Shown piece by piece: positions 4,464 through 60,000 of a stretch of DNA of 64,000 nucleotides. Positions within the stretch are counted from its first letter, which is position 1; the number at the start of each line of letters is the position of its first letter. This stretch comes from Tribonema minus. Taxonomy: Eukaryota > Sar > Xanthophyceae > Tribonematales > Tribonemataceae. The DNA is taken from contig JAFCMP010000010.1 in assembly GCA_017506865.1 (NCBI GenBank), forward strand, positions 248,001-312,000, given 5' to 3'. The position numbers were made by a program, and so were the translations under genes. Below the pieces are notes generated by a model. It did not search any database, was not told the origin of the DNA, and saw nothing but the letters and a program-made list of their open reading frames with translations.

Positions 4464-7400
4464 ACTGCTACAGCTGCTGCTGGTGCTGCTGATGCCGTCG
4501 CTGCTGCCGCTGCTGCAGCCGCCAATACCCCCACCGACGCACGAACAACCCTCTGCCCCACCACACCCTCTCACTGCCGCAACCACCTCACCCCCCCCCA
4601 CCCTCCCCCTCCACCCCCCACCCCCCACCGCGCAGCGCCAAAGGCAGCCTGGGCAGCCTGGGGCGGCGCAACAGCAGCGGCGAGGTCGGCGACGCCGCGG
4701 AGCGCCGCCACCTGCGCTGGGGGTCGCTCATCGCGGCGCCCGTGAGCGCGGGGCGCGGTGCGCGTGCTCGTCCCTGTGGTCGCGGCGGTGACGGACGCGG
4801 GGCGCGTGGCGGGGCGCGAGGTCGCGCAGCGCGCCAAGGGGCTCGGCGCCGTGTCGCTGCGCGGCGCGCAGGTGAGGGCAGCCGGGGCGGGGGGGGGGCA
4901 TGTGTTTGCGGTGGTTCTGAGCGGCTGGGAGATTCATGATTGTGAGGATGGGGCTGTTGGCAAGGGTTGCGGGGGCAGGGCGGCAAGGGGCTCCATATGC
5001 GTTCACAGCGGGTTTGGCGCCGTGTCGCTGCGCGGCGCGCAGGTGAGGCCGGCGTGAGGCCAGTGTGAGGGGGCGGGCATGTAGGCAGCGGCTGCGCTGT
5101 ACGCAGTCATGTATTGAGAGCTTGGTGTGTGCGGGGCGTCGGCGCTGTGCCGTGGGGGCTGCGGGGGAATCAGATGCGCGGTAAGGGCGTTCGGCGCTGT
5201 GTCGCTGCGGGGCGCGCAGGTGGCGCCATCGGCCGGGGGGGGCGGGTTCAGTGTGCAGCGCCGAGCAGTTGAGAGGCTGTAGTGTGGAGGGCGTTGGGGC
5301 TGTTGGCAAAGGTGAGTCGGCGGGGTGCTTTCCTGCAGGGGGGGGGGCAGGGGGCAATGAGCGCTTCGAGGCTGGGGCGCGCAGCGCATTGCAGCTCTTG
5401 GAGCACAGCAGAGAGCAGTGGCAGGCGGACGCGATATGGCATGCGCACAGAGCGTGGCACAGCATGACGCGTTGCTGTGTGGCTTTTCCGAAGGGTGCCA
5501 CAAAACTGCGCTCTCACACTTCGCCCTGGATCTGGAACAACGCCTCAACACGCAATCCTCAGTCGCCGACCCCTCATTAGCCCCCATTCACTGCCCCGTC
5601 GCCGCCGCTTTCATTTTCACCCCCCTCTCCCCCCCCCCCCTCTCCCCCCTCCCCCCTCCCAACCGCCGCCAGGGTGTCGCGGAGGCCGTCAAGATCCTGA
5701 CCGTCGGCAGCATGTCGGCGACGGGGTTCGTGACCTTCAAGACGCTCAGCGCGCGCGCGTCCGCCGTCCAGTCCGTCGTGGTGAGCCTCCCGGGCGTGCT
5801 GGAGGTGACGGCGGCGCCGGAGCCGCGCGACCTCATCTGGCCCAACGTCACGCGCCACCACACTCAGATCAAGTACAGGTGCGCCTCCCCCCCCCCCCCC
5901 CTCCCTCCCCCCTTGGTCTTGTGGTCCGTGGTGTGAGGTTCATGCGGCGCCTGTGTGAGCGTGCTGCAGGGCTGCGGCGGTGAGATAAAGGACATGTCGC
6001 CGCTGCCCCCCGTGTTGTTCAGCGGCGTGCCATGACTGCACGTGTCCGGGTCATTGCGTAGCGGCGTCTGCGGAAGCATGACTGTGAGTCTGCTCTTCTC
6101 GAGCAGCAGCACCGCTTGCGCTCTTGCTGACTCCTTCCTCGGTCCGCAGGCGCTCGTAGGCGGCGAGCACTGGCAAACACTGGCGCGCGTGGGGCACATT
6201 GAGACTAGGGTTAGGTCGGGGTTACGGTTAGGCTAAGGTCAGCCTTGCCCGTGGAAGCGCCGTCGCGTTGCCCGTCAGTCATCGCCGCAGTGTCTCCCCT
6301 CTACCGCCGCCCAAGAAAGCACCTCGCTCCCAAGGAGACGAGGGGCAAGTGAAGAGACAGCGTTGGGATCGCCGGCTGTAGCATCTCTCCCTTGACTGCG
6401 CCTTGTACGCGCCACCGCGCACGGACAGCGTGCAGCCCGCTGCTGACTCTGCGCGCCCCCCTCCCTCGCTTCCCCGCTGCCCCTGCCGCAGGCGCATGTT
6501 CGTCTCCGCAATTGTCCTGGTAGGCCTCGTCTGCTGGAGTCTGATCGTCATCGGCATCCAGGCGCTGACGTCGCCGGCGTCGCTCGACGCCATCTTCCCG
6601 GGCATCGAGGCGTACGCCAAGGCGCACCCGTTCATGGGCGACCTGCTGTCGACGTACCTGCCGGTGGTGCTGCTGCTGCTGCTGCTGCAGAACCTGTACT
6701 TCATCTTCAAGGCGCTCGCGAAGCGCGTAGAGGGGTACAAGAGCGAGTCGGAGGTGGAGCGCGCCGTCATGGGGCGCTACTTCTACTTCCAGGTGCGCGT
6801 GTGCTGTGTAGGGTTGGGGTTAGGGTTAGGGTTAGGGTCAGGTCATGGGCGCTGCTTCTACTTCAGGTGCACGCCGCTTTGTAGATTTGGGGTTAAGGCT
6901 AGGGTTCGAATTGGATCAAAATCAGGGCATGGGGCGCAATTTGTCTTTCACGTGTGCGCTGCTTCTTAGGACTTAGTTAGGGATGTCACTTTATTCAGGT
7001 GTGCTCCTTAGGAGTAGGGTTTGTGCGAGGGTCAGATTAGGGCTGGGGTTGAGCGCATGCTTCCTAGAGTTAGGATTATGGTTAGAGTCAGGATAGGGTC
7101 AGATCATTGGGTGCGGCATCTACTTCAACGTGCTGCAACCGCGAGCGCATCCGGCCGCGCATGTCCGTCGGCGACGACTGCCTTGCCGTTCTGGGCAGAA
7201 CCATACTTGCCTTGTCTGGTGGCGCGCACTTCACCGCCCATGCGTGTACCAGCGGCACTGAGGCACGCCACCGCTCCACCGTGCCATGACGTGTCGTGTG
7301 CACACGCCCCGTACACAAACACTTCGCTTCTGCCCCCCCCCCGCGCCCCCTGCACGCGCGCGTCCCGCTCTCGCAGCTCGCCAACGTGTACGTGTCGGTG

Positions 7401-10400
7401 ACGTCGGGATCCATCCTGGACGCTCTGCGGGACATACTGGAGAACCCCTCGTCGGCCCTGTCGCTGTTGGGGCAGGCGCTACCGGGCGTCGCCGTCTACT
7501 TCACCAAGCTCATCATCGTCAAGGCGAGTGAGAACATGAAATCACAGATGTGAATTCATCGCGGAGGAGGTCGAGGCCAGGGGCACGAACCTGCTGCAGA
7601 TCACCGATGACATTGCCAACATGGTGCGCGCGCTCTGGTCTCGGAACTGCTTGCTGCAGGAAGTGCTGACTGTAGGTATGTGAGCGGCGAGCCTGAATCG
7701 CGGCGTAGCGCGCTGCTGCTGCTGGGCTGGGTCTCGCCATCGGCGCTCTCAGACAGCACGGCGCTTCTGCTGAGCACTGCGAGGCTTGGCATCAGCGCCG
7801 GTGGCGACTCTCGAGTGCCGCTGCTGCTGGGCTGACATGCACACGAGCGCTTGACACTGCGTACGTGTGTTTATATGTGGCAAGCACCGCGACACGTGTG
7901 TCCCAGGCTGACTGTCCTTCAGCCGCGGCACTTCTTCGCCAGTCCCAGTACGCACTGTCGCTAATCGGATGCCGCCGTCAATACACTTTCACGGAGCGCA
8001 TGTCAGCGCATCTGTTGCCCCGATTACTGCCGCATCAGAGCAGACCTTGGGGCGACGCTGGGCTCACGAAGGGGCATCAGTGGACTCATTCAGCCCGGGC
8101 GCACGCGCGAGCGCATCTCGCGTCGCAGCAGCGCTCAGAGCTCATCACAAAACCTAACCCACTTTGAAACGCATGTGCGGACGCAGGTTGTCACAGCCCT
8201 CATAATGCAGCCGTGCCTCGTGCAGCCATGGTCAATCTGCACACCAACCAGTACGACTCTTGACTCACTTTATGACTCACTTAATGACTCATGTGCGACC
8301 GCAGGTCGTCGCGGGCCTCATGATGGAGCTGTGCTTCGGCGGGCGCCCCCTCAAGTTCTGGCGCATCCTGTGCATAGAGATGTTCACGGACCCGCTGCTG
8401 CGCACGCGCGAGGACCGCACGCGCGGCGTCTTCGAGCCCAGCGAGCCCTGGTACGGGCGCTTCTTCGCCGACTTTCTCCTCGTCATCATGGTCGTCTTCG
8501 TATGTGAGTGATGGCGCCCACGCTGAGAGCCAGTGATGAAAATTAAGATTTAAAAACTTGCTGATCTGCCATATCGGGTTCTTGAGTACTTCAGGCATAG
8601 GCACTCTCCTTACGAAAACGTCCTGGACCATGCACACATACATTACGCCACGTCATGTGGTCTTCTAGCAGGAGACGATGCTGATGTGAAATGCCCCCTC
8701 TCGACGATGATGCATCCAATATACGTTCATGCTCCAGGAACGCAGGTTACTCCAAGCTTGTCAGCGCTCAACAAAGCACATCACGGCGCTCCTCATGACA
8801 GCCACTGTCTTGTATCACACGTCCGGTACGACTTTGAGGATCGCTGCATAAATACACCCACTTGTGCAGAGATGTGTACAGCTGGCTCACCAAGTCATCA
8901 CAACTTGAACCGTGTCAGCGCTCAGCGCTCCGCAGCACACATTGCAATGGCGCTTGTCGTGACAACTGCTGATGCTGCCGCCCCGTCTGCTGCCGCCTCC
9001 TCCCCTGCACCCGCACCCGCCCGCCCTTCTGCAGACCAGTGCATCGCGCCCTTCGTCGCCCTGGCGGGCCTGGTGTACTTCTGCGTGGCCGCCATCGTTT
9101 ACAAGGTAATATGGACACGCCAACACCCTGTGTTTCCAGTTGCACAGTCTTGCAGGGGCATTCGTTGTTCTTTCTCAAACAGATCAGATTTTGAGCGTCC
9201 TGGCGCTCCCTGTTGCTCGATGCTGCGGCGGAGGTGTCAGCGACTGTAAGCCATGTGAGCAGCCCGCCAGTACTGCCTAGCCAGCCCTCTTGTGAGCACA
9301 GTACCTGACACGTGTCGCACAGTTTGACTGCTGCGCGCCGCGCTCGCAGTCGCGTTGGGGTGCCTCCGAAACGCATCATCGTCTGCAGCGGCTCGGATCG
9401 GCAGACGTGCATTGGGGAGTGCGTTGGAACGTTCCATTGCGAGGAACTGGCAGCCCTGATCTAGTCAGCGGCTGCGGCGGTGGTGTCTCGCAGCCCAAGT
9501 GTTGCAGGTGTTGCAGTGAGAATCGTGTTCGGGGTACGTGCGATTCTGCGCTGGGTTGATTCATTCATCTCTGCGGCTGCTGACCTCGTTCATCTGCCGC
9601 GCTCCTCCGCTGCTGCGCGCTCGCCTGCTCTGCTCTCCCCGCAGTATCAACTCGTGCACTGCTACTACCCAATTTACGAGAGCGGCGGGCTGTACTTCTA
9701 CAAGCTCTTCCGGCAGGTGAGCCCAGTCAAACCGGTACACTCACTGAATCCGTTACACTTGCCTGACATGGTTCAGAACTCAGCTGGTTTGGTGACGCGC
9801 ATGCATAGCGAGGCGCTGTCACGCTAGACTGGCCTGCAATTGCGTTTGTAGCAGCTGCGCGCGCGCCGGTTGCCCTTCACCCGACGCTTCCCGTCAGCGA
9901 GCGACCCTCTCCTGATCCAGCGGGACACCTGACAGCGTGCACGCATGCCTATGCAGAGAGGTCAAGGCCACACACTGACGTCCACACTTTTGCACTCACC
10001 TATTGGACCGAAGGGGCCACGTCCTGTGCCGGCGGCTCCATCTGCAACAGTACGCCGTACGCCGTGCCCAGAACACTGGCAGCATGATCCCCCATCCCAT
10101 TTCTACACCCCGCCCCTCCCCCCCCCCCCCCCCCCCCGGTGTGCAGGTGATCATCGGCGTTGTCGCCGGCTCCGTCTGCAGCAACGGCTCATTCCCCAAA
10201 TAATCGCTGCACGGCACCCCCCCCCCATTTCTGAACGCTGCCCCCGCCCCCTAACCCCGCCCCGTGCAGGTGATCATCGGCGCCGTCGCCGGCTCCGTCA
10301 CGCTAATTGGCTACATGTCCATACAGCGCGGCCTCAAGCAGGGCCCGTTCCTCATCCCAATACCGTTCATAATTGTGTACTGGGGGCTGCGGTGGACGCG

Positions 10401-12069
10401 TGAGGGCGTCGCCGCGTCCAACCTCCTGTCGCTCGACAAGGCCGCGCTGCAGGACCGCGAGGACGAGCTCGCGGAGGGGCGCCACTGCTTGGCCACGTGG
10501 GAGGTGAGCGCTGCTGCCAGCTTGCTTTGTTGAAGTATGCACAGGTTCAGGGTTTGTGTGTTGGTAGCGGCGCGTCCCCGGTGGAAGTAGCCGCCTGTCG
10601 CTCGACAAGGCGACGCTGCAAGACCGCAAGGACGAGCTCGCGGAGGGGCGTCACTGCCTGGCCACGTGGGAGGTGAGCGCTGTCGGTAGCAGCTTGTGTT
10701 CAGTGTTAGTAGCAGCACGTCACCTGTTGAAGTGGCTGCTTGTCGCTGGACAAGGCCGCGCTGCAGGACCGCGAGGACGAGCTCGCGGAGGGCCGCCACT
10801 GCCTCGCCACGTGGGAGGTGAGAAGTCTGAAAGCTCATTTAGGGGTGCGTCACCTGTTGAACTATCTTGCGGTCGCTCAGCAACGCTCGTCCTCGCGGGA
10901 CGGCGCCCGTCACTGCTGTGCCACGTGGGGGGTGAGACCCGGCTGCGAAGCTCGCCTACGGGCTGACGTTGCCTTCTGTCGTTGCAGTACCGCAAGCACG
11001 TTTCTCAAAGGGCTGCCACTGCTTTGCAACTTGGGAGGTGAGCGCTGTTGCCAGCCTGTTTGATGCTGGTGGGGGTGCGTCACCTGCTGCGACGGCGCGG
11101 CGGCGGCAGGCCCCATTGGCGAGAGCTTGACACTTGCGGCACCACATCGCTGCGCGTAGTTGCGCGTAGTGCGCGTGCTGGCAAGGCTGCGAAGTTGCGC
11201 CCGCGGATGGCCAGCGAAGCACGCTGCACCGCAGCTTCACCAAGTCTACCTTGCGGCTTCCATTGCACACATGGCATCATGGATGCGCGTTCGCCGGCAT
11301 CTCTCTGAGCGCTGGTGCCGCCGCCCACCGCGCGCGCACGCCGCAGACCAGCAATCTACGCTTACGGCAGTCCGCTACGTACATAAACACTGCTTGTGAT
11401 GCGCTCGCTCCGGCATTGCTGAGCGCTGCTGCTGTTCCCCCCCCCCCGCGCGCGCACGCCGCAGACGTTCGACCAGAGCGCATACCAGCAGCCGGTGCTG
11501 CGCGACGCGCTGCTGGGCGGCGGGCGCGAGGACGACTTCAACGTCGACCCGGAGGCGTCCGACGTCGACGCGGACGGCGCCCTTGAGGTGCGTCACCCCT
11601 GCGCTTGCACTTGACGATGCACAAACTTGAACTTCATAGTTGATCACAGTTCCAATAGGGTAGGTGGTGAACATGGACGCCTCGGTTCTTGTCAATGCGG
11701 CTGATGACACCTCCTGCGTGCATGTGCACACGCAGCCTTGTTGCTTTCTGCGAGATGCGGCTCGTGCATACACCGGCAAAGCAAACCTTTAAAGCTGGCA
11801 GCCCGTAGACGGCACTTCAGGTGCGCCTCAGCCGCAGTGTTGATGCGCCACCTGGAAGAACCGTCGAGCCTGCACTATTTTTTAGGAGGGCCATCTTATC
11901 GCTTACTCCGCGCGCGCCGCTCGCCCCGCAGATCGACGAGCTGGGCCACCTGGTGTGGCCGCCGCGCAAGGGCGATGGCGACGACGAGGCCACCGCCAGC
12001 CTGCTTGAGCGCGGCTCGGGCGGCGCCGTCGCTGAGCACTGCATCAACACCACCAAGGTCGCCTGCTGA
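204..12069 (+). CDS. OSCA/TMEM63-type mechanosensitive cation channel, 5'-partial, multi-exon
   Basis: Calcium-permeable stress-gated cation channel of the CSC1/OSCA/TMEM63 family, a multi-span membrane protein. Inferred exons: 204-389, 670-1042, 1697-1773, 2112-2265, 2552-2929, about 3271-4318, 4636-4871, 5673-5878, 6492-6792, 7377-7523, 8305-8503, 9035-9105, 9645-9716, 10270-10503, 11465-11587, 11932-12069. The first exon (GLCHG..REFYGARVAEL) matches the start of the cytosolic domain. The 5673 exon carries GFVTFKTLSAR and the family motif APEPRDLIWPNV. Exons from 6492 to 10503 encode the hydrophobic channel core. The last nine exons join in phase for 496 codons. Exons 670-4871 encode a huge Gly/Ala/Ser/Pro-rich loop; the frame is not continuous near 2929-3271, near 3580 and near 4741-4758, which suggests homopolymer errors or missed micro-introns. 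Helices before the cytosolic domain are off-window. Confidence 0.87.
670..4871 (+). other. Low-complexity insertion in the cytosolic loop of the OSCA-like channel
   Basis: Seven exons between the conserved halves of the cytosolic domain encode a disordered-looking stretch rich in Gly, Ala, Ser, Pro and Arg. It includes a poly-Gly run at about 861-910 and many Ser-Pro pairs (SPRKAS, SPLPSPPDSPLRRLSPSD, SPSPPRNG, SPVRTPPSPSSPR) that look like proline-directed phosphorylation sites. Related channels have only a short structured linker here. Reading frame changes inside homopolymer or triplet-repeat runs make the exact residue count uncertain. Confidence 0.6.
4838..5220 (+). repeat. Tandem copies of an exon 3' end plus its splice donor
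   Basis: The exon ending at 4871 finishes GGCGCGCAG followed by GTGAGG. Near-identical copies of the last 28-30 exon bases and the donor end at 5042 and 5219, spaced 171 and 177 bp apart, inside the following intron. The sequence between them is also partly repeated (GGGGCTGTTGGCAA at about 4949 and again at about 5297). These are additional potential splice donors. Confidence 0.85.
6203..7105 (+). repeat. Interstitial telomere-like TTAGGG tracts
   Basis: Perfect TTAGGG units occur at 6815-6838, and degenerate TTAGGG, TTAGGC or TCAGG units are scattered from 6203-6238 and from 6880-7105. They lie in two neighbouring introns of the channel gene. The unit matches the telomere repeat used by many protists. 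No chromosome end is indicated because coding exons lie on both sides. Confidence 0.75.
8166..8220 (+). repeat. Echo of an exon 5' edge with its acceptor
   Basis: About 50 bases at 8166-8220 (CATGTGCGGACGCAG then GTTGTC...) are a diverged copy of the acceptor and first bases of the exon that begins at 8305, about 120 bp upstream of the real site. The copy retains a usable CAG acceptor. Confidence 0.75.
10140..10192 (+). repeat. Echo of the 5' edge of the 10270 exon
   Basis: GTGCAG|GTGATCATCGGCGT and the following GTCGCCGGCTCCGTC repeat the acceptor and first 30 or so bases of the exon starting at 10270, placed 123 bp upstream. A fainter third copy (GCCGGCGGCTCCATCTGCAACAG) is visible at about 10029-10051. 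Confidence 0.8.
10430..11045 (+). repeat. Five-copy decaying array of an exon 3' end plus donor
   Basis: The exon 10270-10503 ends GCCACGTGGGAG|GTGAGC. Copies ending at 10672 and 10817 repeat about 75-80 exon bases with high identity and keep the coding frame (SLDKA.LQDR.DELAEG). Shorter, more diverged copies end at 10931 and 11037. Spacings are 169, 145, 114 and 106 bp. No clean in-phase acceptor precedes the copies, so they look like donor decoys rather than complete alternative exons. Confidence 0.85.
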
Positions 12070-37700: not shown

Positions 37701-38799
37701 GCAGCACGATGCGGCGCTGGCAGTGCTGCGACAGACGCTCGAGAGCGGTGTGGCCGCGGCGGCGGTGGCTGCAGACGCACACTTGAAGGAAGCTGCGTCT
37801 GCCCACGCTAAGGCACTCGCAGCAGCGGAGGAGAGGCGCGCTGCGGACGCTGCCGCGGCACGAATCGCTGCGCAGGAGCAGAAGAGCGAACACATGGCAG
37901 CGCTCAACAGGGCGAGCGTCGCAGCGCAGGAAGAGGCGGCCGCGGCGGCGCGGCGTGCGGAGCGCGCTGCAGCGGACGCGCAGTCCACTGCAGTGAAGGC
38001 ACTGCGCGCTGAGCTGCTGACGCAGCAGGAAGCCGCGCTCGCACAGGCTGCGGAGCGCGCGCAGCAAGAGGCGGCGGCGGCCGCAGCGCTGCTGGCGGTG
38101 GCGCAGTCCGATGCCGCGCGCACGGCCGCGCAGCTAGCTGACGCACAGGGCGCGCTGCAGCAGATGCAGATCAATGCCGCCGCGGCTGCAGAAGGCGCGC
38201 GGCGACGAGAGCTCGAGCTGGCGGCGCTCAACCAGGAGGCCTTGGCGGCGGCAGCGCGGCAGGGGCAGGAGGCACTGGCAGCTGCGCAGGCGCGGCACGC
38301 GGCGGCGGCGGCTGAGGCCGCGCAGGCGGCGGCGGCGCTGCGCCGGGAGCTCGCGCAGTCGGAGGCGCGCTTCGTTGACAGGCCGAGCCGCGCGGAGGAC
38401 GTCGCGCGCATAGAGGCGCTGGAGGGCGAGGTGCGCGAGCGCGACGCGCGTGCGCGCCGCGCGCTGGAAGAGACGGCGTACTTCAAGCGCGAGCTGCTGA
38501 ACCGCGAGGAGATGTACAACCGCAAGTTCAACGCGAACCCTGTCGTGGGCGTCATGCAGGTGGTGAAGCCGCGCGAGGCGGCCGCGGCGGGGGGGGTAGC
38601 CGGCATAGGATTCGGAGGCCGCGCAGGCAGCAAGCCGCCGCGGGCTCGGTCCAATAGCGTGTCCGCCACGGCAGCGGCGCCGTCGTCATCGGTACCCAGC
38701 AAGAAGCCGGTGCACCGGTCCGCATCTTTTAACTCCAACGTAGGCGTCGGCGGCGGCAGCGCCGCGAGCATTGAGTCGCGTCGTAGTAGCAGCAAATAA
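34750..38799 (+). CDS. FAM184: FAM184 family coiled-coil protein
   Basis: Three exons (34750-34899, 35375-36583, 36871-38799) join in phase to give 1095 residues, close to human FAM184A (1140). Residues 20-45 carry the family signature HHKMSKKIAQLTKVIYHLNT. The middle of about 900 residues is an unbroken, extremely Ala/Glu/Arg-rich coiled coil. Near the C-terminus the second conserved block reads YFKRELLNREEMYNRKFNAN followed by PVVGVMQVVK, then a Ser-rich disordered tail. The family occurs mainly in flagellated eukaryotes; a role in the flagellum or centrosome is inferred. The extreme GC bias has driven the coiled coil toward Ala codons and creates long antisense open frames. Confidence 0.93.
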
Positions 38800-39272
38800 T
38801 CAAGTCTCTCAGTGATGCTTGCCCAGTGCGTTTTTTGGTTTTTTGATGCTGAGAGTGCTGATCGTGCGCACCTGTGATCGCCACAACGTTCACACAGGGC
38901 GATCACCGCGACGGCCACACAGGGCGAAACACGGGCGTACATGCCACAGACCTGGATGCGGCGAGGGGCGCTGCAGACGCACGATGCCGCGGCCAAGGCG
39001 CACTATTCGTGCCCTCGCTGCGGCGGCCTGGGCGCCCTAGACATTAATTCCTGACGGAACACGCTCACCGACGCCAGGGGGGTGGTCAGGTTGATCATTG
39101 GCAGCAGATGGGCGCGCTGTTGGGGGGGGGGGAAGTACCTTCTTTTTAAGTCTTGAATATCGCCAATTTTGTTCCGCCACTTGGCGAATATATTTCGCCG
39201 AAGTCAACTTGAATTAGAATTGAGTTTTTTTTGCCCATCAAGAGCAAACACACAAGCACGCTACAAGAAGGC
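38800..39272. other. Intergenic region between tandem + strand genes
   Basis: 473 bp between the FAM184 stop and the F-box gene start. It holds a G10 run (39122-39131), then an AT-richer stretch with TTTGTTCCGCCACTTGGCGAA that may be part of the downstream promoter. No gene is seen. Confidence 0.45.
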
Positions 39273-43873: not shown

Positions 43874-46800
43874 TCACGACGCGCCAAACGCGCGCGCCCA
43901 CATGGACTTCTCGGCCTTGGCCTGCATCTTCTGCTTCTTCTTGACCTCCGACCGCATCTTGAGCTGCGGTGGACGGGGACGCGCAAGTGCAAAATGAGTC
44001 ATTACACGGTGCTGAATGCCACTCTAGTTGCAAATTGGGGGCACTCGCATCATGCGCAGGGGAGAATCACAGAGCCTCTGTGCAAATGCGTCACTTGCAC
44101 TATGGAATCAGTGCAGGCAGTTGGTGCCCGTGTGAGGTGGGTGATTGCGCCCAACCGGCGGGCGTCTTTCGTCCGCGCAAGACCACCGCCGGCTGCGGAA
44201 GCGGTGGCACTGTCTCGCTCTTGTGCCAACGACACATCGTGCTGCGCGGATGGCATAGAGCTGCACGCTGACAGTGCTGACGCGTCCATGCTTGACTCAC
44301 ACTCTACAACCTGAGTCTCAATCTCTGTCACCCGCCCCCGCAATATGGGTCTTTGCAGCCGTGTCATGACCGTGTCATCGCAATGTGGCTGTGCCGGATA
44401 CCATAGCGCAAATAAATGCCAACAACGCGTGACGCCACGCCGTACGCCCGCCTACACCGGTCCTGGCTGCTATTCTGTGGTGATGCAGTAACTTCAACTT
44501 CAACTTCATGCACGTCTTGGCACTGCAACAGACATTGCGCCACTCACCACTGCAGCGTCTTGCGGTGCAAGTTCAAATGCGGCGTCCAGGTCTGCCTCCG
44601 ATTTGTCGTACTGTTTCTTGGCAAAGTATGCGTAGCCACGCCGGTACAGGGCTTTTGAGCTGCGCAACAGGAGCAAAACACGAGTCATGGCAGTAAGAAA
44701 TGAATAGTGGAAGCGTTGCAAAGTCCAACAGCGCCATGAGGGTGGCACAGCATGGTCACAGCACCACGGGAATAAGGGTTTACCGCTACACCACTTGCGG
44801 ACCGCAAGCAGCATTGGCAGGACGTACGCAGTAACAACGTGCTCGAGGCACTGAGCCAGCCAGCTTCCATGTAAGTGCAATATTGTGCAGCACGCTGGCG
44901 GACCTTGCAGAAGTACGCCGCATACTGTCGTCTTCTATAAATTTCCACTCTAGCGTGCCGCACAGGGTGAGCCAGTGGCGTTCCCGCTGCCAGTCCGTAC
45001 CCATCGCAGCGGCACTTGTGAATTTCAAAGCATGGTAGGATTCAGACGATCCCTGATAACCCCAAGGGCCCCATAAGAGGCTCATTGAGACCCCGACAAA
45101 GCGTGCAGCGCCTTTGAAAACGCTGCTACAGGACACGCAGTGATACGGAGTGCACACGCAGCCGTGCCAGCGAAGCAAGTGAACTGCGCGCGCGCGTTGC
45201 GCCAGCGCACGCACCTCTTGGCGTCGATCTTGAGCGCGTGCGAGCAGTTGGCGACCACCATGTCCCACTTCTCCAGCTTGAGGTAGACCTGGCTCAGGTT
45301 CATGTACAGGGCCACCTTGAGGGCGTCCACTTCCGTCTGCAGCGGCGGCCGAAGCGGCGCAAACGAACGCGGCAGAACGGCGCAGCGCGCGGCAGGAAGA
45401 AAAGGCGCGTCAGCATGCGCTGCTGCCGTGTAACCAACGTGAGTGAAAGCGGTGGCGGCATGAGGGCGTCCACTTCCGCCTGCAGCGGCGGCGGCAGCAG
45501 AAGCGAGCGCGGCAGAATGGCGCAGCGCGCAGCAGAAAGGGAAGGCGTGTCAAGGCGACAGAACGACGCAGCGCGCGGCAGAAAGACGGGCGCGTCAGCA
45601 CGCGCCGCCGCTGCGTGAGCGACGCGCGTGACAGCGGTGGCGGCATCGCAGCATGCGGCGGTGTGTCAAAAGGTGGACGGTGGCACCTGCCGCGGCGTGC
45701 ACGCAAGCCTGGCCGCTGGCAGGACGACACACAAGCAGGCAGCGGGCGCGCTGCACCAGACGCCGCTGCTGCAAGGTGTTGGGCAAAGGCCTCACTCGCT
45801 CGCACAGCTGACATCGTCTTGTTGATGGACGCCCCCTTGGGCAACAGCCGCGCGCGCGCAACACTGAATTGAAACATCTTTTCAACACTGAATTGAAACA
45901 TCTTTTCAGAATATCAATTTCGTGCTGATGACAATTCCCACCTGCTCGTCGGGGCTGAGGTCGACGAACTTGGCGGCGTGCGAGAGCGCCTTGGCGTAGC
46001 GCGCGCCCGCGGCCGTCCAGTTGCCGCCCTGGAACAGCTCGTTGCCCTCCTGCGCGGGCGCGGTGCGGCGGCGAGCTGGGGGTCAGGGCCACAGGGTACG
46101 TATGCGGCGTCACTAGCATGACAGAGTTGAAGTGCACCACAGTTGAAGACAGGGGGGAGGGGGGGGGGGGGGGCACTTGCAGTGGATTCGTGAAAATCGG
46201 CAGGCGCGAGGCAAACATCGCAACAACGCCCGCCCTCCTCCATCCCGAAGCGCCTCTACGCACGGCGACAGCGCACGGACGCGGCGCGCCATGGCCAGCG
46301 CATCGCCGGCCTCGCGGCGCCGCACTGATGCTGCACATATACGCGAGCGTGCGGCGTGCATCGACGCTCCAGCAGGTGCACCCGGCCGCAGTCAGCGCGC
46401 TGCTGACAGCTGTAACAGAGCAACAATGCAGCGTTTCGCGCAGAGGCGGCAGCGCGCGACGGCGGCACGCGCTCACCTCCTTGTTCTTGGCGAGCAGGCG
46501 CATGCGTTCCGGCTTTTTGAGGCGGCGCGAGTCGCGGTCGGCGTCCTCCTCGATGGCGTCGGGGTCGGCGGCGCGCTCCGCGGCGGCGCGCGCCGCGTCC
46601 GCCTCCAGCGCCTCCTCCTTGGCCTTCCGTTCTTGCTCCTGAGAGCGGCGAGGACGCGGCGCGCGCATGGGATTGAAGTCGTTGGCGCGTGTGTGAGGGG
46701 CAGCGCAGCAGCAACTTAGGAAGGGGACGGTGTGGCAAACGGGGCATGAATTATTGTTCCTGAGCGGACGCGGCGCGAGCGTGCGGTCGCAGGCGTTGAC

Positions 46801-49800
46801 GCGGGCGTGAAGGTGGCAGCGTGCTAGCAGGTTCAGGGCGGGGTGAGGACAATAGTCCACGTCGTGCGAAGACGGGCGCATTGCGAGCGGGGTAGAGGCA
46901 ACCGAGGCCATGTAAGGCGAGGGCGGGCGCGTTGCGAGTGGAGTTGAGGCGACTCAAATGGCCAGCGCAGTGTGCGCCGGTGGCGGTTGCCGCTGCAAGT
47001 TCCAAGCAGTTGAGCTGCCTCCGAGCAGCGCTGATGCGATGGCACACGCACAAGACTCCGCAGCGCTGCGTCAGCAGTGCTCGGCCAATGGCATAAGCGC
47101 TCAGCTCTGGCAGTGTCAGCTTTCAACTCGCAGCAGCAGCAGCGCTCAGCTCTCACCTCCGCCGCGTAGTAGCCCGCGCACATCTCGCGCAGCCGCGCCG
47201 TCACCTCCGCCTCCTTGGCGGTCATCTGCGGGGGACGGGGGGGCGCAAGAGCAGCAACAATCAGCATGCGCACTCATGAGAACTAAGCGGCGCTGCACCC
47301 GGCTGTTGTAAAACTAGCTGACCACGATCCCATGATCACATTGCCTCCACGGCGAGCATGCGCTGTGAAGGCGCGCGTGCGCATATCACGAGGCGGCACA
47401 CGCGCATGAAAGCGGGCACGCGGGGCATGACGGCGAGGTGAAACATGCGCAGCGGCACGGGCCAAGCAGTACCAGAAACTGACGCCAGAGCGGAGGAGCT
47501 GCCGCTTCGCCGCGCGCGAGCCGCTACATCGCGCGCCGCGCCATGCGCAAACGACACCCTCCTTCGACAGTGCTATCAACGACTAATCTCAAATGTCTGT
47601 GCGAGTCCCAGGTCACTGCTGCGGTCGCTTGCGACTGCACGCGCGTATGCATACGTGCCTACCAGAGAATGCGAGCGCCGTCGTCGCGCGGGCCGCACCT
47701 GCTCCAGCGTGGCCTCCGCGGCCTCGTCCGTGTACAGCCAGTCGTCGACCTCGTCGAGGTACGGCGCGAGCGCGTCGCGCGGCAGCAGCGCTCCGCGCGC
47801 CCCGTCCAGCGCGCCGCGCATGCTCAGCAGCAGCCCCTCCAGCGCGTTCTTGCGCTCCGCGATGGCGTGCAGCTCCGCGTCCGCGGCGGCCATCTTCGCC
47901 TGCACGCGAGATAGACGCGCAATACGCGTGTCGTTCAGCAGCGCCGATGATGATGCGGCTTTGATGGCGATGCAGCCGCCTTTGAGTGCAAGCGTTGGCG
48001 CGGAGCACGGCGTGCGTGCGCCGGCGCTGATGCTGCCGCGTGGCAACAGAAGGTGACTTCGGACGCGCTTCTGCGCGCAGCGTCTGGCGACAGAAGGCGT
48101 GCGCGCGAGACGTGGAACGTCGGCGGCGTGGAAGCGCGACGTTGGGTCCGGAGCAGCGACAGCAGCGGCGGTCCGTGCGCGCGCGCCAGAGCTACCGCAC
48201 GCAACGATCCTCAACAAGCAGCGCGCCGGCTTGCTGCGCGGCAACAGCAGCACACACGGGGCAAGGCAGGCATGCGACGCCAAACTTCAACTTGAGGTGC
48301 TCTCCGCGCAACCCACCTCCGCTTCAATGGCGTCCGCGATCTGCTCGTCGCTCATCCCGGATGCGTCCGCTGGAGGCGGCGGCGGTGGCGCGCCAGCTGC
48401 ATATGCGGCGCGGACCAAAGGAGCGCGCGAGAAAGCAGGGAGGCAGCGGTGAGCATGCTTGTGTGGCTGCCCGAACAGGGTGATTGCAGCGTGCCGATTG
48501 CAGCGCTTGGCGCGTAATACAGCACCATGCAACTTGAAACGACTGGTGTTAAGAGATACATACATGCCATGGCTGCTGCGCCCAGGATGATGGCGGGTCG
48601 ATTGCGCTGCTTGGCGCGTAGTTCAGCATCGTCCAACTTCAACTGCTGGTGTCAAATGGGAACACAGAATATGTACATGCTATGGCTGCCGTGTCCAGGG
48701 TGGAGCGTGGATTGCACTGCTTACGCGCAGTGCAGCAACATGAAACTTCAACTGCTGGGTTGGATAGACACGTACATGCCATGGCTGCCGCGCCCAGAAT
48801 GGCAGCGCCGCACGCGAGGGCGGCATCGTCCATCTTGTAGCCCATCGGCACCCCCAGGGCCCCCACAATATCCTGCGCCAGAAAGCGACAGGAGCGCAAG
48901 ATGGGCATAAGATTGACGGGTCAAGTTCAAGGTGGGGGTTTGATGACCAGGTCTTCCGTTGAGCAATGCGGAGCACCGACCTCAAGATTGGCGGCGCCAC
49001 AAACACTCAAGGGTGGCCGGAAACGAGGTCGCCACATGTCCATTGCACTTGAGGGAAACACTTTCACACTGCAGAGATGCGACGGCAAGAGTGACAAAAG
49101 CGAGCTGTTGCCGATGCGGCTCACGAACCACTACATCATGTCATGTCAACTACGCCCCTCCAACACCGCTCGCTGACGCTACTTTTCTATGCCCAGAGCG
49201 GTTGCAGGCACACGTTTGCACTGCTTGCTCGGTTGCGGGGTGGCCACCAGAAGTAGGCACGTCACCTGTATCAGAAGTGGACACGCCACCTGCACCAGAA
49301 GTAGGCACGTCACCTGTATCAGAGGCATCCTGGCGCCACCGCCAGCCACCTCCACGCTGCTCAGCTGCTCCTTCACCTGCCGCAAGCGCAGTCAACGGCG
49401 CAGTCGCAGCGGGCGTGGTCAGTGCACACGCTCGCGCCGAAACGGCGTAAGGGTAGATGACACAGTGACCTGACTTCAATCGGCAGCTCCAGTTAGCCTT
49501 CAGCGATGCGTGCTTCTACTAGTTTAGGTTTCAGCGGAGTCCCAGTTGCCAGGGGGCCCGGGTGACAGGCAGCAAATTCCACATGAAGGAGTAGACCGAG
49601 TGCTGGCACGGATGTCGACGCTTCGTCTGCAGTGCACCATCACCGCGAGACCACAGCTCACCGCGGTCTCAACTGCAGCAGCACAGACAGATAGAAGAGT
49701 GGGGCGCGCCGTGCGGCGGGATGTCGACAGCGGCGCAGCGAGAGGGCGTGACCATGGCGTGCTGCCGGCACCGGAGGTGCGTGCGCACGCCTGAAGACGC

Positions 49801-52800: not shown

Positions 52801-52820
52801 GCGGCAGATGGCGCCGCCAT
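43874..52820 (-). CDS. Hsp110/Hsp70-like ATPase fused to a TPR domain, without a substrate-binding beta domain
   Basis: Fourteen exons (52610-52820, 51567-52138, 51021-51112, 49960-50116, 49314-49376, 48776-48872, 48317-48396, 47699-47899, 47157-47225, 46477-46638, 45942-46049, 45215-45336, 44548-44659, 43874-43963) stay in phase at every join: 711 residues. Residues 1-398 form a divergent Hsp110-type nucleotide-binding domain: GLDLGSLKVMAVL, VCYSGRERFVGEAG, VVFLDMGSSQTTISIV and the adenosine motif VEVAGGGARMP. The substrate-binding beta domain is absent. After a Pro-rich linker comes an Hsp110-like helical segment (AIAERKNALEGLLLSMRGAL, YLDEVDDWLYTDE), a charged coil, then three TPRs with the carboxylate-clamp pattern (NKEEGNELF, YMNLSQVYLKL, KALYRRGYAYF) and a basic tail. 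No signal peptide: cytosolic. A co-chaperone that binds EEVD tails of Hsp70/Hsp90 is inferred. Confidence 0.88.
45323..45620 (-). repeat. Tandem duplication of the 5' edge of an Hsp110-TPR exon
   Basis: On the + strand GCGTCCACTTCC followed by (G/T)(T/C)CTGCAGCGGCGGC occurs at 45323 (the real start of the exon at 45336 with its acceptor) and again at 45466, 143 bp away. The following about 100 bases (GCGGCAGAACGGCGCAGCGC and variants) are present three times up to about 45620. A spare acceptor is therefore carried in the upstream intron. Confidence 0.8.
48555..48800 (-). repeat. Two echoes of an Hsp110-TPR exon 3' end and donor
   Basis: The exon ending at 48776 finishes GCGGCAGCCATGGCAT|GTACGT on the minus strand. 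Copies lie at about 48665-48695 (CGGCAGCCATAGCATGTACA) and about 48560-48595 (GCAGCAGCCATGGCATGTAT), each followed by a CAGTTGAAGTT-type or TTTCAAGTTG-type motif. The unit is about 110 bp and three copies in total are visible. Confidence 0.82.
49250..49330 (-). repeat. 24-bp in-frame repeats of a splice donor
   Basis: Three 24-bp units on the minus strand, each CTG(A/G)T(A/G)CAGGTG(A/G)CGTG followed by (C/T)C(T/C)ACTT-type sequence, begin at the donor of the 49314-49376 exon. Each contains a CAG|GTG donor. Use of a later donor would add 8 or 16 residues without changing the frame. Confidence 0.82.
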
Positions 52821-53021
52821 TTCGACGTGCCTCGTTCAAAACAAAGTTCAAGAACAAGTTGAAGTGTTCCACTTCGGAAATCAGAATAAACCCCTTTTTT
52901 CTTCGTCCGGATCCGTGCGAACGACGGGAGTCCAGTGCATACAAACAGCCAGCACAGCCACTGACAGCCCACGTAAGGCCAACCAGCAGCAGCAGTACAC
53001 ATCGGACCCAGACGCGACAGT
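52821..53021. promoter_or_regulatory. Very short divergent intergenic region
   Basis: Only 201 bp between the start codons of the Hsp110-TPR gene (-) and the repeat-protein gene (+). It contains CAAGTTGAAGT at 52855-52865. Confidence 0.5.
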
Positions 53022-53942
53022 ATGACGCGGCTGGCGCTGATCGTGGCGGGCTATTGGGCGACTTCTGCCATGTGCGAGGCTTTTGTCCCTCCTCCGGTGA
53101 TTGGACAGGGTCGATTTCGTGTGCAGAAGACCAAAACCGGGAGCTGCGACGCGCGTGGCGCGTGCCGCAGCTCGCCTAAGGCCAAGGCCGGTCCTGGCTG
53201 CTGAGGACCCCACCTCCGCAGAGGACTATGAGCCAACTGTCCGAGGTCAGTTTTTGTGTTGTTTCTTCGCAAAAGTTCTTGACGTTTTGCCGTGGTGTGT
53301 AGGTGTATGCACCTGGTGCATGCATGGCTGACCTGCGCTTGGCGCACTGCGTTCTGTTGCTCCTTGTGCTTGTGTTGTTCAGGAGATCAGGTCCGCGTAA
53401 TAATCGACAATGCCAAGGCGTTTGGCTCGCTTCAAAGCGATGTCAGAACGCTGATGGAGAACGGTGCCTCGAAAGAGGGCCTTGAGGGCGTTCGGAAGGA
53501 CGTGACTCGCATTGAGAGTACGCTTGGAAACTGCGCGACAAAGGAGGCTGTCGCCGAAATTAAGGCGGCCGTCGACAACTGTGCCACCAAGGAGGCTGTC
53601 GCCGGCGTCAAAGACGGCATTACACGCGTGGAGCAGGCCGTCACCAGTTGCGCTACCAAGGAGGCTGTCGCCGGCGTAAAAGGCGACATTTCGCGCGTGG
53701 AGCAGGCCGTCAACAATTGCGCTTCAAAAGACGCTGTCGCCAGCGTGCAAGAGGCCGTCAATAACTGTGCCACAAAAGACACTGTCGCTAGCGTGAAAGA
53801 GGATGTGGCCAAATGTGCCCAGAAGGAGGACGTGCGCAAGGAGAACATCTACCAAGTATTGATCTTGGTGTTTCTACACTTTATCCCACAGGATTCGCTC
53901 TCCTTCCTATGGGCAGGCTTCTTGAATGCTGCAGGCAAGTAG
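53022..53942 (+). CDS. Coiled-coil repeat protein with signal/plastid-type presequence
   Basis: Residues 1-19 form a signal peptide (TRLALIVAGYWATSAMCEAF), with Phe after the Ala and PPPVIG downstream, resembling an ASAF-type plastid presequence. The frame must shift between about 53110 and 53150 by an unresolved short intron, because the downstream exon (EDPTSAEDYEPTVR, ending 53245) is in another frame; the same shift exists in the inverted copy. The last exon (53383-53942) carries NAKAFGSLQSDVRTLMENGA, then six to seven imperfect repeats of the type CATKEAVAGVK.. ITRVEQAV.N, each with one Cys, likely a coiled coil. It ends with a hydrophobic segment (YQVLILVFLHFIPQ) before the TAG. No family recognised. 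Confidence 0.7.
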
Positions 53943-55828: not shown

Positions 55829-55945
55829 ACTCCTTATGGATAAAGGTGCCATCGAGGGCGTTGGCGTCAAGGACGACATTACGCGCGTGGAGCAGGCCGT
55901 CAACAATCGCGCTACCAAGGAGGATGTCGTCGGCGTCAAGACAAG
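55829..55945 (+). pseudogene. Fragment of the coiled-coil repeat gene
   Basis: Reads MDKGAIEGVGVKDDITRVEQ, then AVNNRATKEDVVGVK on the + strand, matching the repeat region of the 53022 gene. It has no presequence exon, then runs into an (ACAAG)n tract and a stop. It is a truncated copy facing the minus-strand copy that starts at 55975. Confidence 0.75.
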
Positions 55946-55985
55946 ACAAGACAAGTCAAGACAAGACAAGTCTTGACGCCGGCGA
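55926..55985. repeat. Inverted-repeat junction with ACAAG pentamers
   Basis: GGCGTCAAGAC (55932-55942) and GTCTTGACGCC (55970-55980) form arms around a block of ACAAG/TCAAG units. The two gene fragments diverge from this point in opposite orientations, giving a hairpin-like structure. Confidence 0.8.
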
Positions 55986-56560
55986 CAGCCTCTTCGGTGG
56001 CGCAATTGTTGACGGCCTGCTCCACAGGCGTAATGTTGATGCCATCAAGGGCCTCTTTCGAGGCACCTTTGTCCATCAGCGTTCTGACGTCGCTTTGCAG
56101 CGAGCCAAACGCCTTGGCGTTTTCAATAACGAAGGACTCCATCTCCTTAGATTCTCCTAAAACAACACAAGCACAAGGAGCAGCGGAACGCAGTGTGTTG
56201 TGCACAGGTCAGCCATGCATGCACCAGGTGCATGCACCTACACACCAAGGCAAAACGTCACAAAGTTTTTCGGAAAGAACAAACAAAAAACTGACCTCGG
56301 ACAGTTCGCTGATCATGGTCCTCTTCGGAAGCGGGGTCCTCAGAAGCCAGCACCAGCCCTGGCCTAAGGTGAGCTACGGCACGCGCTGCGCATCGCAGCT
56401 CCCGTCGTTGGTCCCCTACCCACAACGCCGCCAACCCTGTCCGAGGCAGAACCAATAACCGGAGGAGGCACAAAAGCCTCGCACATGGTAGAAGTCGCCC
56501 AATAGCCTGCCACAATCAGCGCCAGCCGTCTTCTGTCGTTGCATCTTGTACGCACCTTCA
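55946..56560 (-). pseudogene. Inverted, decayed copy of the coiled-coil repeat gene
   Basis: Minus-strand copy of the 53022 gene. The presequence (RLALIVAGYWATSTMCEAFV) is preserved but the ATG is lost: the sequence before RLALIV reads GACAGAAGACGG instead of GACAGTATGACGCGG. The SEDPASEEDHDQRTVR exon, its GTCAGT donor and the next acceptor (TTTTAG|GA) are kept. The repeat exon has only about one and a half units (NCATEEAVAGVK) before it runs into the ACAAG block near 55975. Missing start and missing C-terminus argue for a pseudogene. Confidence 0.72.
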
Positions 56561-57018
56561 CTTCGCTCTTCAAGTGTCTGTTGAGATTGGCACCGCAACG
56601 ATGGCGGCGCCGACTGCAAAAGCATCACATTCTCCACTATCTCACCGCCAGCCAGCGCCCCCTGCTTCTCTGCTACTATGCCTGAGTAACATGGTGTGCC
56701 TGCCTGCATGCCGCTTTCCAACCAACCAGATAAGAAATCGCTGAGCTGCAAACGTACCTCACAGATCCAACGCACATCGCCCCAAACTAAGACCGATGTT
56801 CTCCTTTCCCTGGCAGGCTTGCAAGACTATAGTAGTAGAGGGCAAAAACTCGGCCACGCGTACTCGTACTCAGTTGAAGTACTCGCTCGAGGTGCAACGA
56901 AAAGATTGCGGATGTTCCCTATAGCTCAAAGTACTTCCAAGGCCGAGGCAAAGGGAAGGCGAAGGGCGGCAAGTTGGGCAGCTTGAATATTCATCGTCTC
57001 TCCGCAGCATCTTGAGCC
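56561..57018. promoter_or_regulatory. Divergent intergenic region
   Basis: Region between the decayed copy (-) and the EEF1AKMT4-like gene (+), the probable promoter of the latter. It contains CAGTTGAAGTACT at 56871-56883. No other element seen. Confidence 0.4.
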
Positions 57019-60000
57019 ATGGCTGAATACGGCGAGTGCGCTATGAGGCCCGGCTGCAGCTTAAGATCCGCACCAAATTTACACACCTGTCGCTGCTCTG
57101 CAAGGCTGACGCTGGCCGCTGCTGCTCTGTGCTTGTCAGGCAAAGTTTCGTACTGGGACGACAGATACACCAAGGATCCGGAGCCCTTTGACTGGTACCA
57201 GGTAACACGACAAGGATGCTTCAATGCACCCAGTCCTCCTCATCAAAACTGTTCCCCCGCGAGCTGGCTAGCAGGTGGTATGATTACTGACGAGGGGGGG
57301 ATGTTGTCATCAGTCAACATGGCAGGTGCAGAGGGTCGTCGCATCATTTGCTGATAATCTGGTACTCTGATGCGGATATGTGCTGCACAACGTGAATGCG
57401 GCAACAAACACTCAAAATTGCTTGTATGTTACGCGTATGTGTGCGCACGGTGGTCTCGATAAGCCGTCATGTACAACATTGTCTTCTTGCACTCGTCATC
57501 TGCTGCCTTGCAGCGATATTCCGGGATCAAGGACCTGGTCGCAGCGCAAATGAAGCACGAGGACAATGTGCTGATGCTGGGCTGCGGCAACTCGCGGCTG
57601 AGCGAGGACATGCTGGAGGATGGCTTCACATCAATCACCAACATTGACATTTCAAGAGTTGTCATCGACCAGGTGCGCTGCTGAGATCTGTCGTGCTGCT
57701 CAGTGGCGCTGCAGGCACAGTGCCAGGTGCTTCTCCTTGTGTTCAGCGTTTGAATCCGGCATCAGTGGCAGCAGAAGGTGTATGTAGCGCTGACCGTTGA
57801 TAAGTTGTAGTGCGCGCTGTAGGCGCACATCCGTTGTCGTGGCGCTGATTGCGTTGCACACTAGTAAAGCAGCAGAACGCGGGTTGACGACGCCTGCTTA
57901 TTGTGGGCAGCAAGAGGTGATGCGCTTTCCCGCTTGTGAACGGGACAGGAAGCAAGCACATCTGGTTTCACGCATAAGCGCACCGGCCACCAATGGAAAG
58001 CGGAGCGGTGCATCCCAGCAGCAACCAATCGAGCTGACATGCAGCACGTGCATGCTCACGGGCGATGCTTTGCCAGCCGAAATGCCAACAAGACAGCATG
58101 GCTGCACACGCGCTCGCATGCAGCCCCAAAGTAGCAAGCACAATCATCACGAGCTGGTGCTGCACGGCCGGGCGGTATGAAGAGCTCATCTGAAGGCTGC
58201 CAGAGCTGTAACACGAGTCGACACGTTGCCCAGCTGCTGCACAGTCAGCTGCAGCCTGTAGAAGTGAAGCGGTCTGGCAGTTGTGCGATCACGCCCACAG
58301 CGGTCAGATGGCCTCACACGTGACCAGCATGAACCTGCGCTGCCATAGCATGGTGTGCACCGCACGCCGCAGTCACCGGAGCCAGCAGGCGCTCCTTTGA
58401 ACGGCATCGCCTGCAGACAGCGCCATTGGCGCTGCTTGGAAGTGCTTCACACCGTACAAATTTATCCTTACCGTTGACTGCATCCCGCTCACGAACTTCA
58501 ACGTCACAAGCTCACGACCACAACCGCGCCTCTCTCACGGTCGCTGCTCAAGAACAAGCAGTTCGGCGGTCACATGTTCACGACCACGAGCGGGCCTCAC
58601 ACGGTGGCTCCTCAAGAATCAGCGCGACCCACGCACCGCCGCCGCCGCTGCGTCGCGTACGCCGCCGCAGATGATTGAGCGCCACAAGGACAAGCCCGCG
58701 CTCGTGTGGCAGCGCATGAACGCCATGGCGCTGGAGTACCCTGACGAGAGCTTTGACGCCGCGGTGGACAAGGGGACGCTGGACAGCCTCATGTGCGGGG
58801 AGGGCGCGTCGGCCAACGTCGCCAAGATGTGCATGGAGGTGCGTGCGGGGCGGGCGCGCAGAGGGGGGGGGGGGGGGGGGGGCTGGTGCAGCAGCAGAAG
58901 GCAGACTGCTGAGCCGAGCCTAACAGCCCCACGGCGTTTGCAGCTGAGGCTTGCAGCCGGGGAGGGGGGGGGGGCATGCAGGTCGAGTGCAGGGCGCCTA
59001 AGCCCTGGATGCAGTGTCGGACGCGGGGGGGGGGGGGGGGCATTTGACGACCTTGTGTGCGGCGCGGGTGCGCCCACCAACGCGGCCAGGTCATGCAGGG
59101 GTGCGCTCTGTAGTTGAGCGTTGTTCGCAGAGCACAGCGCAGAGGCTGCTGCAGCGCCGTATCAGGGACTGATACTGGTTTCTTTAGCAGTTGCCCAGCT
59201 TGTCGCTGGCGGTTGCAGATGGCTGGCCGACTGTGTCGAGACAGTGCTTGGCATTTCAACCAATTGAGGATCGCGGGCTGCAGGGATTCATGCTCTGGCA
59301 AGGAATGGGCGCATTTGGGCGCTTTCTGTGGCCAGTCAAGGGTGCGGCTTAGGTCGACGTTTGTTGGCGTGCACGACGGAGGCGATGCCCCCGACACCGC
59401 CCTTATGCGGCATGATGAGGCAGGTGCATGTACGCAGGATCGCGGGCTTGGGGGCTCGGACGCCGCAAAGCGAATGTATCGCGCTCATCACGGCAGGGCC
59501 CCAATGCGGTGGCTGCCGTGTGCATACCCGCTTTTCATAGATGGCAGTTGGCATGAAGCGCTGTCTGGAGTTGACACCTGCAGTAAAATTCAAGGCGCAC
59601 TCCTGTGACGCCGTGCCAGCGCTGCTACGAGTGCCTCGCTACCTCCACCGGAGCGGCGCGCACACGCTTTTCTCCTGCGCCTTTCTCACCCGCCCTCTAT
59701 AAACGACAATATGATGCTCCTGATGACTGCCCTGCTTGCTCAAAGGCCGTAGCCATCCACTGCCCACAACGCTACGCATACAAGTTGTTCCTCATTGCGG
59801 AAAGTGCCCCTGCCGCGCCGCGCCGCTGCAGGTGAGCCGCGTCCTCAAGCCGAACGGCGTGTACCTGGTCATCTCGTACGGCGCGCCCGACTCGCGCCTC
59901 AAGTACCTCCAGTCCGACGACTACAGCTGGACGGTGTCGGTGGCGACGCTCCCCAAGCCCGCCATCAGCGCCGCGGCCATCCCCGACACCAAGGACGCGA

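Follow-up and report, generated by a model that had tools for sequence, protein, structure and literature searches.

Why are the edges of exons repeated in the introns that flank them? This question is raised by a 64,000-nucleotide stretch of the Tribonema minus genome (contig C10, JAFCMP010000010.1, positions 248001–312000, referred to as the window; the assembly comprises 158 Mb in 554 contigs), in which pieces that span a splice junction recur as direct copies, here called echoes, within the adjacent introns of predicted genes. With a probability of roughly 0.6, we regard the echoes as ordinary short tandem duplications arranged head to tail, the spare copy of which is silenced by splicing, and longer persistence as the likeliest additional factor. 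The pattern is genuine, and it returns throughout the sample, which consisted of the window and 26 stretches of 10 kb each, 324 kb out of the 158 Mb, with a pair of phosphofructokinase genes added non-randomly. For the most part it is the ordinary result of frequent tandem duplication combined with splicing, which does not fully explain a modest excess at exon edges and a slow decay of the exon-derived pieces. A light-harvesting protein encoded in this genome comes closest, among PDB entries, to fucoxanthin chlorophyll a/c proteins, which makes a chlorophyll-c type of alga probable.

Duplicated exon edges and their genes

Eight of the nine intervals named in the sequence-only reading of the window carry direct repeats that share an exon edge together with its splice site, as found by self-comparison of the window followed by alignment of each claimed site (Table 1). 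The repeats were said to lie in four unrelated genes. Three of these can be upheld, namely OSCA, an IFT70-like gene and an Hsp110-TPR gene, but the fourth, EEF1AKMT4-like, is not firm: it offers a weak match at 59056–59105, the score of which is equalled or exceeded by 6 of 406 control stretches, and its methyltransferase label is itself weak, the Methyltransf_11 match (E 0.007) falling short of its threshold. IFT70 and EEF1AKMT4 are putative names given in that reading, which had overlooked an array at 6766–6906 with apparent decayed copies downstream. At 10422–11065 a donor edge is present in five copies, the best pair matching at 95% over 82 positions (E 1.4e-30), and the array at the 4871 donor includes a longer alignment of 4829–4967 with 5176–5313 at 72%.

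The gene models come from a hidden Markov model (HMM) gene finder self-trained on these data, and are predictions made without RNA. Short exons were called by the gene finder at several echoes; 34 predicted exons were removed from the models, half of them (17) because they were echoes and half (17) because their length fell below 25 bp. The resemblance of echoes to short real exons is a warning for gene finders. Over the whole sample, 73% of the 171 predicted donors are GT and 27% GC, and the median predicted intron and exon measure 312 bp and 164 nt. In OSCA, IFT70-like and Hsp110-TPR the exon edges appear to be real, because the spliced frames are open without the echoes and the products have Pfam matches. 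The OSCA frame is open through 8 exons, and the IFT70-like (8 exons) and Hsp110-TPR (10 exons) frames hold the terminal stop only, in each case once the echoes, and a small number of further short exon predictions, have been excluded. Pfam finds RSN1_7TM in OSCA (1.2e-49), TPR repeats in IFT70-like, and HSP70 together with TPR in Hsp110-TPR. It recognises every one of the seven spliced proteins submitted to it, which come from the window, from the sample and from the phosphofructokinase gene (RSN1_7TM, TPR, HSP70 with TPR, PFK, P450, PRA1 and EamA), a scan that left out the array-bearing models L003, L004, L012 and L026. The open frames of the three window genes thus keep the coding sequence intact with the exon-attached splice site, the use of which is deduced from the frames themselves. 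It had also been claimed that the spare copies lie in introns and never in an exon. This fits the gene models, but it is an outcome of them and works as a filter, not as independent evidence, because a spare copy turns into intron whenever splicing keeps the site attached to the exon.

Table 1. Exon edges, echoes and a copy in trans in the window (window positions).
Feature	Position	Strand	Evidence
OSCA exon, 3′ edge (donor after 4871), echo source	4747-4871	+	HMM model, open spliced frame
Echo 1 of 4871 donor edge, intronic	5010-5048	+	95% over 39 to 4839-4877
Echo 2 of 4871 donor edge	5184-5222	+	87% over 39 to echo 1 (5007-5045)
Tandem pair, OSCA 6792 donor edge	6766-6833 / 6842-6906	+	82% over 68, offset 76
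Phosphofructokinase (C509/C545) intron piece followed by exon edge (7556-7626), in OSCA intron	7541-7626	+	alignments
Echo of OSCA 8305 acceptor edge	8169-8220 (source 8287-8338)	+	79% over 52
Echo of OSCA 10270 acceptor edge	10089-10176 (source 10217-10299)	+	78% over 88
OSCA exon 3′ edge (donor after 10502/10503), source of four echoes	10422-10508	+	self-comparison, HMM model, open frame
Echo 1 of 10503 donor edge	10591-10677	+	self-comparison; donor GT kept
Echo 2 of 10503 donor edge	10741-10822	+	95% over 82
Echo 3 of 10503 donor edge, decayed (fourth copy, weak)	10892-10946	+	76% over 55, E 0.02
Echo 4 of 10503 donor edge	10980-11065	+	78% over 88
IFT70-like intronic copy of donor-edge unit 27348-27499	27166-27331	-	27166-27249 / 27348-27431, 88% over 84; 27294-27331 / 27462-27499, 87% over 38
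IFT70-like exon with duplicated donor edge	27479-27643	-	HMM model, open frame
Hsp110-TPR intronic copies, acceptor edge of exon 45215-45336	45461-45646	-	45318-45412 / 45461-45552 (84%); 45366-45461 / 45552-45646 (81%)
Hsp110-TPR intronic copies, donor edge of exon 48776-48872	48464-48707	-	48464-48707 / 48570-48807 (70%); 48485-48589 / 48701-48801 (76%)
24-bp tandem units (3.2) starting at donor edge of exon 49314-49376	49248-49323	-	tandem repeat; exon within open spliced frame
Weak candidate echo of 58838 donor edge	59056-59105	+	52 columns, in register with donor, score 30

The recurrence of the pattern in many genes, as had been proposed, is borne out by other genes of the random sample and by a phosphofructokinase gene, within the 324 kb sampled. 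Counting local repeats up to 1.5 kb apart gives 151 direct pairs and 5 inverted ones; together they occupy 5.7% of the unassigned DNA, with higher shares in predicted introns (10.3%) and predicted exons (7.1%). Full-length tandem pairs are found outside predicted multi-exon genes (331 bp at 99.7% in L013, 329 bp at 92% in L018 and 118 bp at 90% in L008) as well as across an exon edge (231 bp at 86% in L015). Periods run from about 60 to 350 bp, and in young pairs the aligned length is close to the period. Plain tandem duplication is indicated by this agreement, the direct orientation and the occurrence outside predicted genes.

The steps can be pictured as follows. Short tandem duplication would produce units of about 60–350 bp, head to tail, in and outside genes. 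Where a unit crosses a donor or an acceptor, splicing would continue from the copy attached to the exon body, as the open frames suggest, so that the protein would be unchanged and the spare copy would become intron. Purifying selection would then hold the exon copy, and such pairs would be recognisable longer than intron–intron pairs. In a forward simulation with detection, half of the straddling arrays are still found near d 0.25 and half of the intron-only arrays near 0.19. Among the causes put forward in the sequence-only reading, the best fit is given by tolerance of a duplication as long as it leaves the exon-attached splice site in place.

Duplication at junctions compared with chance

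It had been reasoned that random tandem duplication should not prefer exon edges. The argument ignores geometry: 44–51% of arrays are expected to straddle a junction with no preference at all, because introns (median 312 bp) are short relative to units of 60–350 bp. The sequence-only reading had also named a result that would refute a special process at exon edges, a failure of intronic repeats to peak at junctions, and no position-wise peak is seen. Direct-repeat coverage in the sample is 7–10% in the first 60 bp of intron next to donors and acceptors, 6–15% from there out to 275 bp, and higher beyond. On the exon side it is 2–5% beyond 45 bp at acceptors, and at donors it hardly drops (6–9%).

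Arrays were also counted as wholes in relation to junctions. The count covers 24 arrays that lie within multi-exon genes and are not purely exonic; 43 outside multi-exon genes, 2 crossing a gene end and 4 wholly exonic were left out, and the phosphofructokinase pair was kept apart. Five of the 24 come from L003 and five from OSCA, and arrays of the same gene are not independent. A single duplication in the IFT70-like gene counts as two arrays (27166, intron-only; 27294, straddling), and the acceptor array 10089–10299 falls outside the 24, apparently owing to the complexity filter. The expectation was obtained by forward simulation of uniform duplications, with the exon copy evolving at 0.35 of the neutral rate and detection repeated on the products. 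A simplest null, in which the aligned block was taken as the whole unit (7.8 of 24 expected), was discarded for one with the unit equal to the period, and then for the simulation.

Several results, here and in the ageing of the echoes below, weigh against tandem duplication and splicing as a complete account. Nineteen of the 24 genic arrays cross a junction, where 10.9 are expected under uniform duplication with the period taken as the unit (P 0.0006). The simulation gives 44% straddling (690 of 1568 detected; P 0.0005), a figure that is low since it omitted the 431 of 6000 units that held more than one junction and took introns at their present, already increased length; counting multi-junction units as straddling raises it to 51% (P 0.004). 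When two models doubtful by eye (L004 and L026) are dropped with their three arrays, two of them straddling, 17 of 21 still straddle (P 0.0006 at an expectation of 0.44, 0.004 at 0.50 and 0.013 at 0.55). The overlap with the exon is short as well, with a median of 37 nt in 48 echoes against 56–66 nt simulated. At 80% identity or more the excess is 9 of 12 against 5.7 expected (P 0.04). It is not significant at 85% or more, where 6 of 8 straddle against 4.4 expected (P 0.19), nor when exons are masked and detection is restricted to introns (8 of 14 against 5.2, P 0.09; 10 of 18 against 7.1, P 0.11). The proposal of a special exon-edge process is supported only in part, by the excess among arrays and not by a peak in position, and the excess loses significance with exons masked.

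Alternatively, geometry and detection bias under uniform duplication might account for everything, with nothing special about exon edges. The flat coverage at junctions, the non-significant masked and high-identity counts, and splice dinucleotides kept no more often than expected all speak for this explanation. Nevertheless, the odds lean against it, since 19 of 24 exceeds the 44–51% of a simulation in which both effects are already included, and since the exon overlaps are so short.

The phosphofructokinase genes were traced via an exon edge that lies in an OSCA intron. The gene on C509 has echoes at seven junctions, and its paralog on C545 at two junctions with a weak third; the two have six exons of identical length in common though the echoes differ, and 24% of fourfold sites are different. 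In this pair 8 of 11 arrays cross a junction where 3.7 would be expected (P 0.008); with exons masked 4 of 10 do so, against 3.0. One acceptor appears by eye to have been duplicated independently in both paralogs, the flanks being alike within and not between paralogs.

Such a junction hit twice would suit the view that duplications are born preferentially at exon edges, for example through breaks linked with co-transcriptional splicing, R-loops or the borders of nucleosomes. The excess of straddling arrays and the short exon overlap would suit this view too, and intron-only arrays are not evidently depleted, with 5 seen where about 7 would follow by simple arithmetic from the density outside genes (43 arrays in about 220 kb). 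A hotspot is still somewhat unlikely: coverage has no peak at junctions, the excess fades among the youngest pairs (the 6 of 8 at high identity, small numbers), and with seven junctions echoed in the first paralog an overlap with the second is unsurprising. The fading of the excess among young pairs, small as the numbers are, points to longer persistence over a birth hotspot. In this small sample junctions are involved somewhat beyond chance, which suggests longer persistence or weak targeting.

Ageing of the echoes

Exon and intron parts of the echoes have diverged to different degrees. In 48 echoes, divergence is 10.3% on the exon side and 24.6%, with numerous gaps, over the adjoining 50 bp of intron. 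Without the two doubtful models 46 echoes remain, and in these identity steps down at the junction from 0.87–0.91 to 0.63 and then to about 0.55. The intron flanks are nevertheless homologous out to 150 bp, with 0.47–0.63 of positions matched against 0.17–0.38 in unrelated flanks. Since identity steps down while the flanks stay above unrelated ones to 150 bp, the data support joint duplication of exon and intron, the intron part then changing faster. Part of the step is expected, because selection holds one exon copy and detection favours conserved pieces.

Homologous flanks bear also on reverse splicing, one of the causes suggested for the window, and on a mobile element that resembles an intron and makes long target-site duplications. 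In a few echoes the end lies about 7 nt or less from the splice site, an OSCA intron contains a phosphofructokinase exon edge, and part of an Hsp110 array is present on contig C520, as either route could produce. Both are very improbable in view of head-to-tail copies, of intronic flanks whose matching, taken over the whole group, far exceeds that of unrelated flanks, and of repeats that occur outside predicted genes too.

The adverse results on ageing concern the flanks and the codon positions. In 28 echoes with an exon part less than 10% diverged, the flanks match at 23–30 of 50 positions against 37–44 simulated. An empirical control gives 34.5 matches in 27 non-exonic arrays against 29.7 at 20 real junctions with the same limit on exon divergence (p 0.009), a contrast uncorrected for the slower clock of the exon copy, a correction that would shrink it; above 10% divergence, real and control flanks are no different. 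What remains of the flank contrast is modest. Of 182 differences, 92 fall at third codon positions, a share of 0.505 (bootstrap confidence interval 0.436–0.575, 27 junctions). The expected share is 0.40 with the exon evolving at 0.45 of the neutral rate (P 0.003) and 0.42 at 0.6 (P 0.011), and the contrast weakens to 0.45 expected (P 0.09) at a rate of 1.0, the exon changing as fast as the echo; the constrained third-position share in these calculations (0.587) was taken from the single phosphofructokinase paralog pair. On the other hand, the exon-derived parts differ by 0.149 between echoes and by 0.103 between exon and echo. This ratio of about 1.45 is near the 1.38 that we derive for copies which each drift away on their own from an exon under constraint.

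The sharp step in identity and the third-position share would be accounted for if echoes were selected as alternative or decoy exon edges, or if their exon-derived part alone were re-copied from spliced RNA or cDNA. At acceptor 5697 of the joined phosphofructokinase locus, for instance, the exon part is about 96% identical and the intron flank has no clear resemblance. We hold this explanation to be unlikely. Splice dinucleotides are kept in 40 of 46 echoes against 0.82 simulated under neutrality (P 0.27), which is no excess; letting the used site mutate lowers the expectation to 0.68 and makes an excess appear, but that is a fault of the simulation and disappears with the site kept fixed. In-frame stops occur in 3 of 47 echoes, inclusion of an echo would presumably break conserved enzymes, re-copying from RNA predicts no third-position bias, and the flank contrast is modest against the empirical control. 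That intronic copies of exon edges are kept, their exon-derived part being constrained for coding or splicing or refreshed from the exon or the spliced transcript, is accordingly doubtful; if true, introns would serve as a lasting store of exon edges, in cis and at times in trans.

Tandem duplication with splicing remains the preferred reading. The residual excess of junction-crossing arrays and the slower decay of the exon part are not fully explained by it, and may reflect a longer persistence of exon-derived echoes, through weak constraint or exchange with the exon, and not a birth hotspot.

Copies in trans and related systems

Two cases lie away from their source. The exon-edge copy at 7556–7626 in the OSCA intron matches C509:81245–81315 at 93% over 71 positions and C545:141598–141669 at 86% over 72, and the intron piece before it is identical at 15 of 15 positions to the start of a phosphofructokinase intron. 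A 21-base motif of that intron has five genome occurrences at up to 2 mismatches, against one for its reversed control. Part of the Hsp110 intron array (48614–48736) matches contig C520 (L037, 576–701) at 77%; by eye the match sits just after a donor-like site, in a 1.2-kb piece in which the gene finder predicts no gene. In both cases the alignments show that pieces of this kind are able to move.

Among known systems, the potato RdRp gene is reported to have gained one new intron through a tandem duplication across an intron–exon boundary (PMC4974935). The echoes resemble it in being direct, head-to-tail copies of part exon and part intron. They differ in that the potato case, as reported, concerns one gene and a new intron, whereas here many genes are involved, with several copies per junction, and in the window introns are lengthened. 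Intron gain by tandem duplication in general likewise shares tandem duplication and the reuse of splice sites, but it yields a new intron bounded by the duplicated copies. The echo junctions of the window lie inside introns, away from the other splice site (for example 10146, in an intron from 9717). Intron birth by duplication of an AGGT site was rejected in the same way, as these junctions do not match the far splice site. Tandem exon duplication, as described for mutually exclusive exons (PMC6071210), also copies an exon with adjacent intron, yet the present units usually hold one junction and a median of 37 nt out of an exon of 164 nt, not a whole exon with both splice sites. Small tandem duplications are described as abundant in genomes and were shown at induced breaks in human and mouse cells (PMC8355091). 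Their size class and orientation fit the echoes, though the abstract makes no link to exon edges. By analogy, fill-in during break repair may be the mutational source.

The lengthening of introns recalls a different phenomenon. Introner elements are a case of unusual intron growth in algae, and the echoes share that growth. The echo units, unlike introners, are local copies of the gene itself, and many near-identical copies at unrelated loci were not found when the three gene regions were compared with the genome, very common words being skipped. No dispersed family appeared among the best-scored genome matches to the OSCA, IFT70-like and Hsp110 regions bar telomere-like repeats, and a dispersed repeat or introner family was rejected on the few other matches. 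An allelic or collapsed-haplotype artefact was discarded as well, as no second copy of the OSCA region is present among the scored matches (40 of 49 candidates). Our literature search found no report of this habit of exon-edge duplication. If it is genome-wide, it offers a dense natural record of intron lengthening and of the origin of spare splice sites, and makes it testable whether junctions are fragile sites or merely the places where duplications survive.

Other repeats of the window may be mentioned. OSCA introns contain telomere-like TTAGGG/TAGGGT runs at 6200–6240 and 6795–6862, and the second run accounts for most of the 66 matches that the OSCA region has in the genome. The long open frames at 35200–38800 are very GC-rich and densely filled with low-order repeats; a Pfam scan of the frame 36868–38796 gave no match. 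At 53529–53819 and 55863–56073, tandem repeats of 48–69 bp overlap an open frame and have direct and inverted copies about 2.3 kb away.

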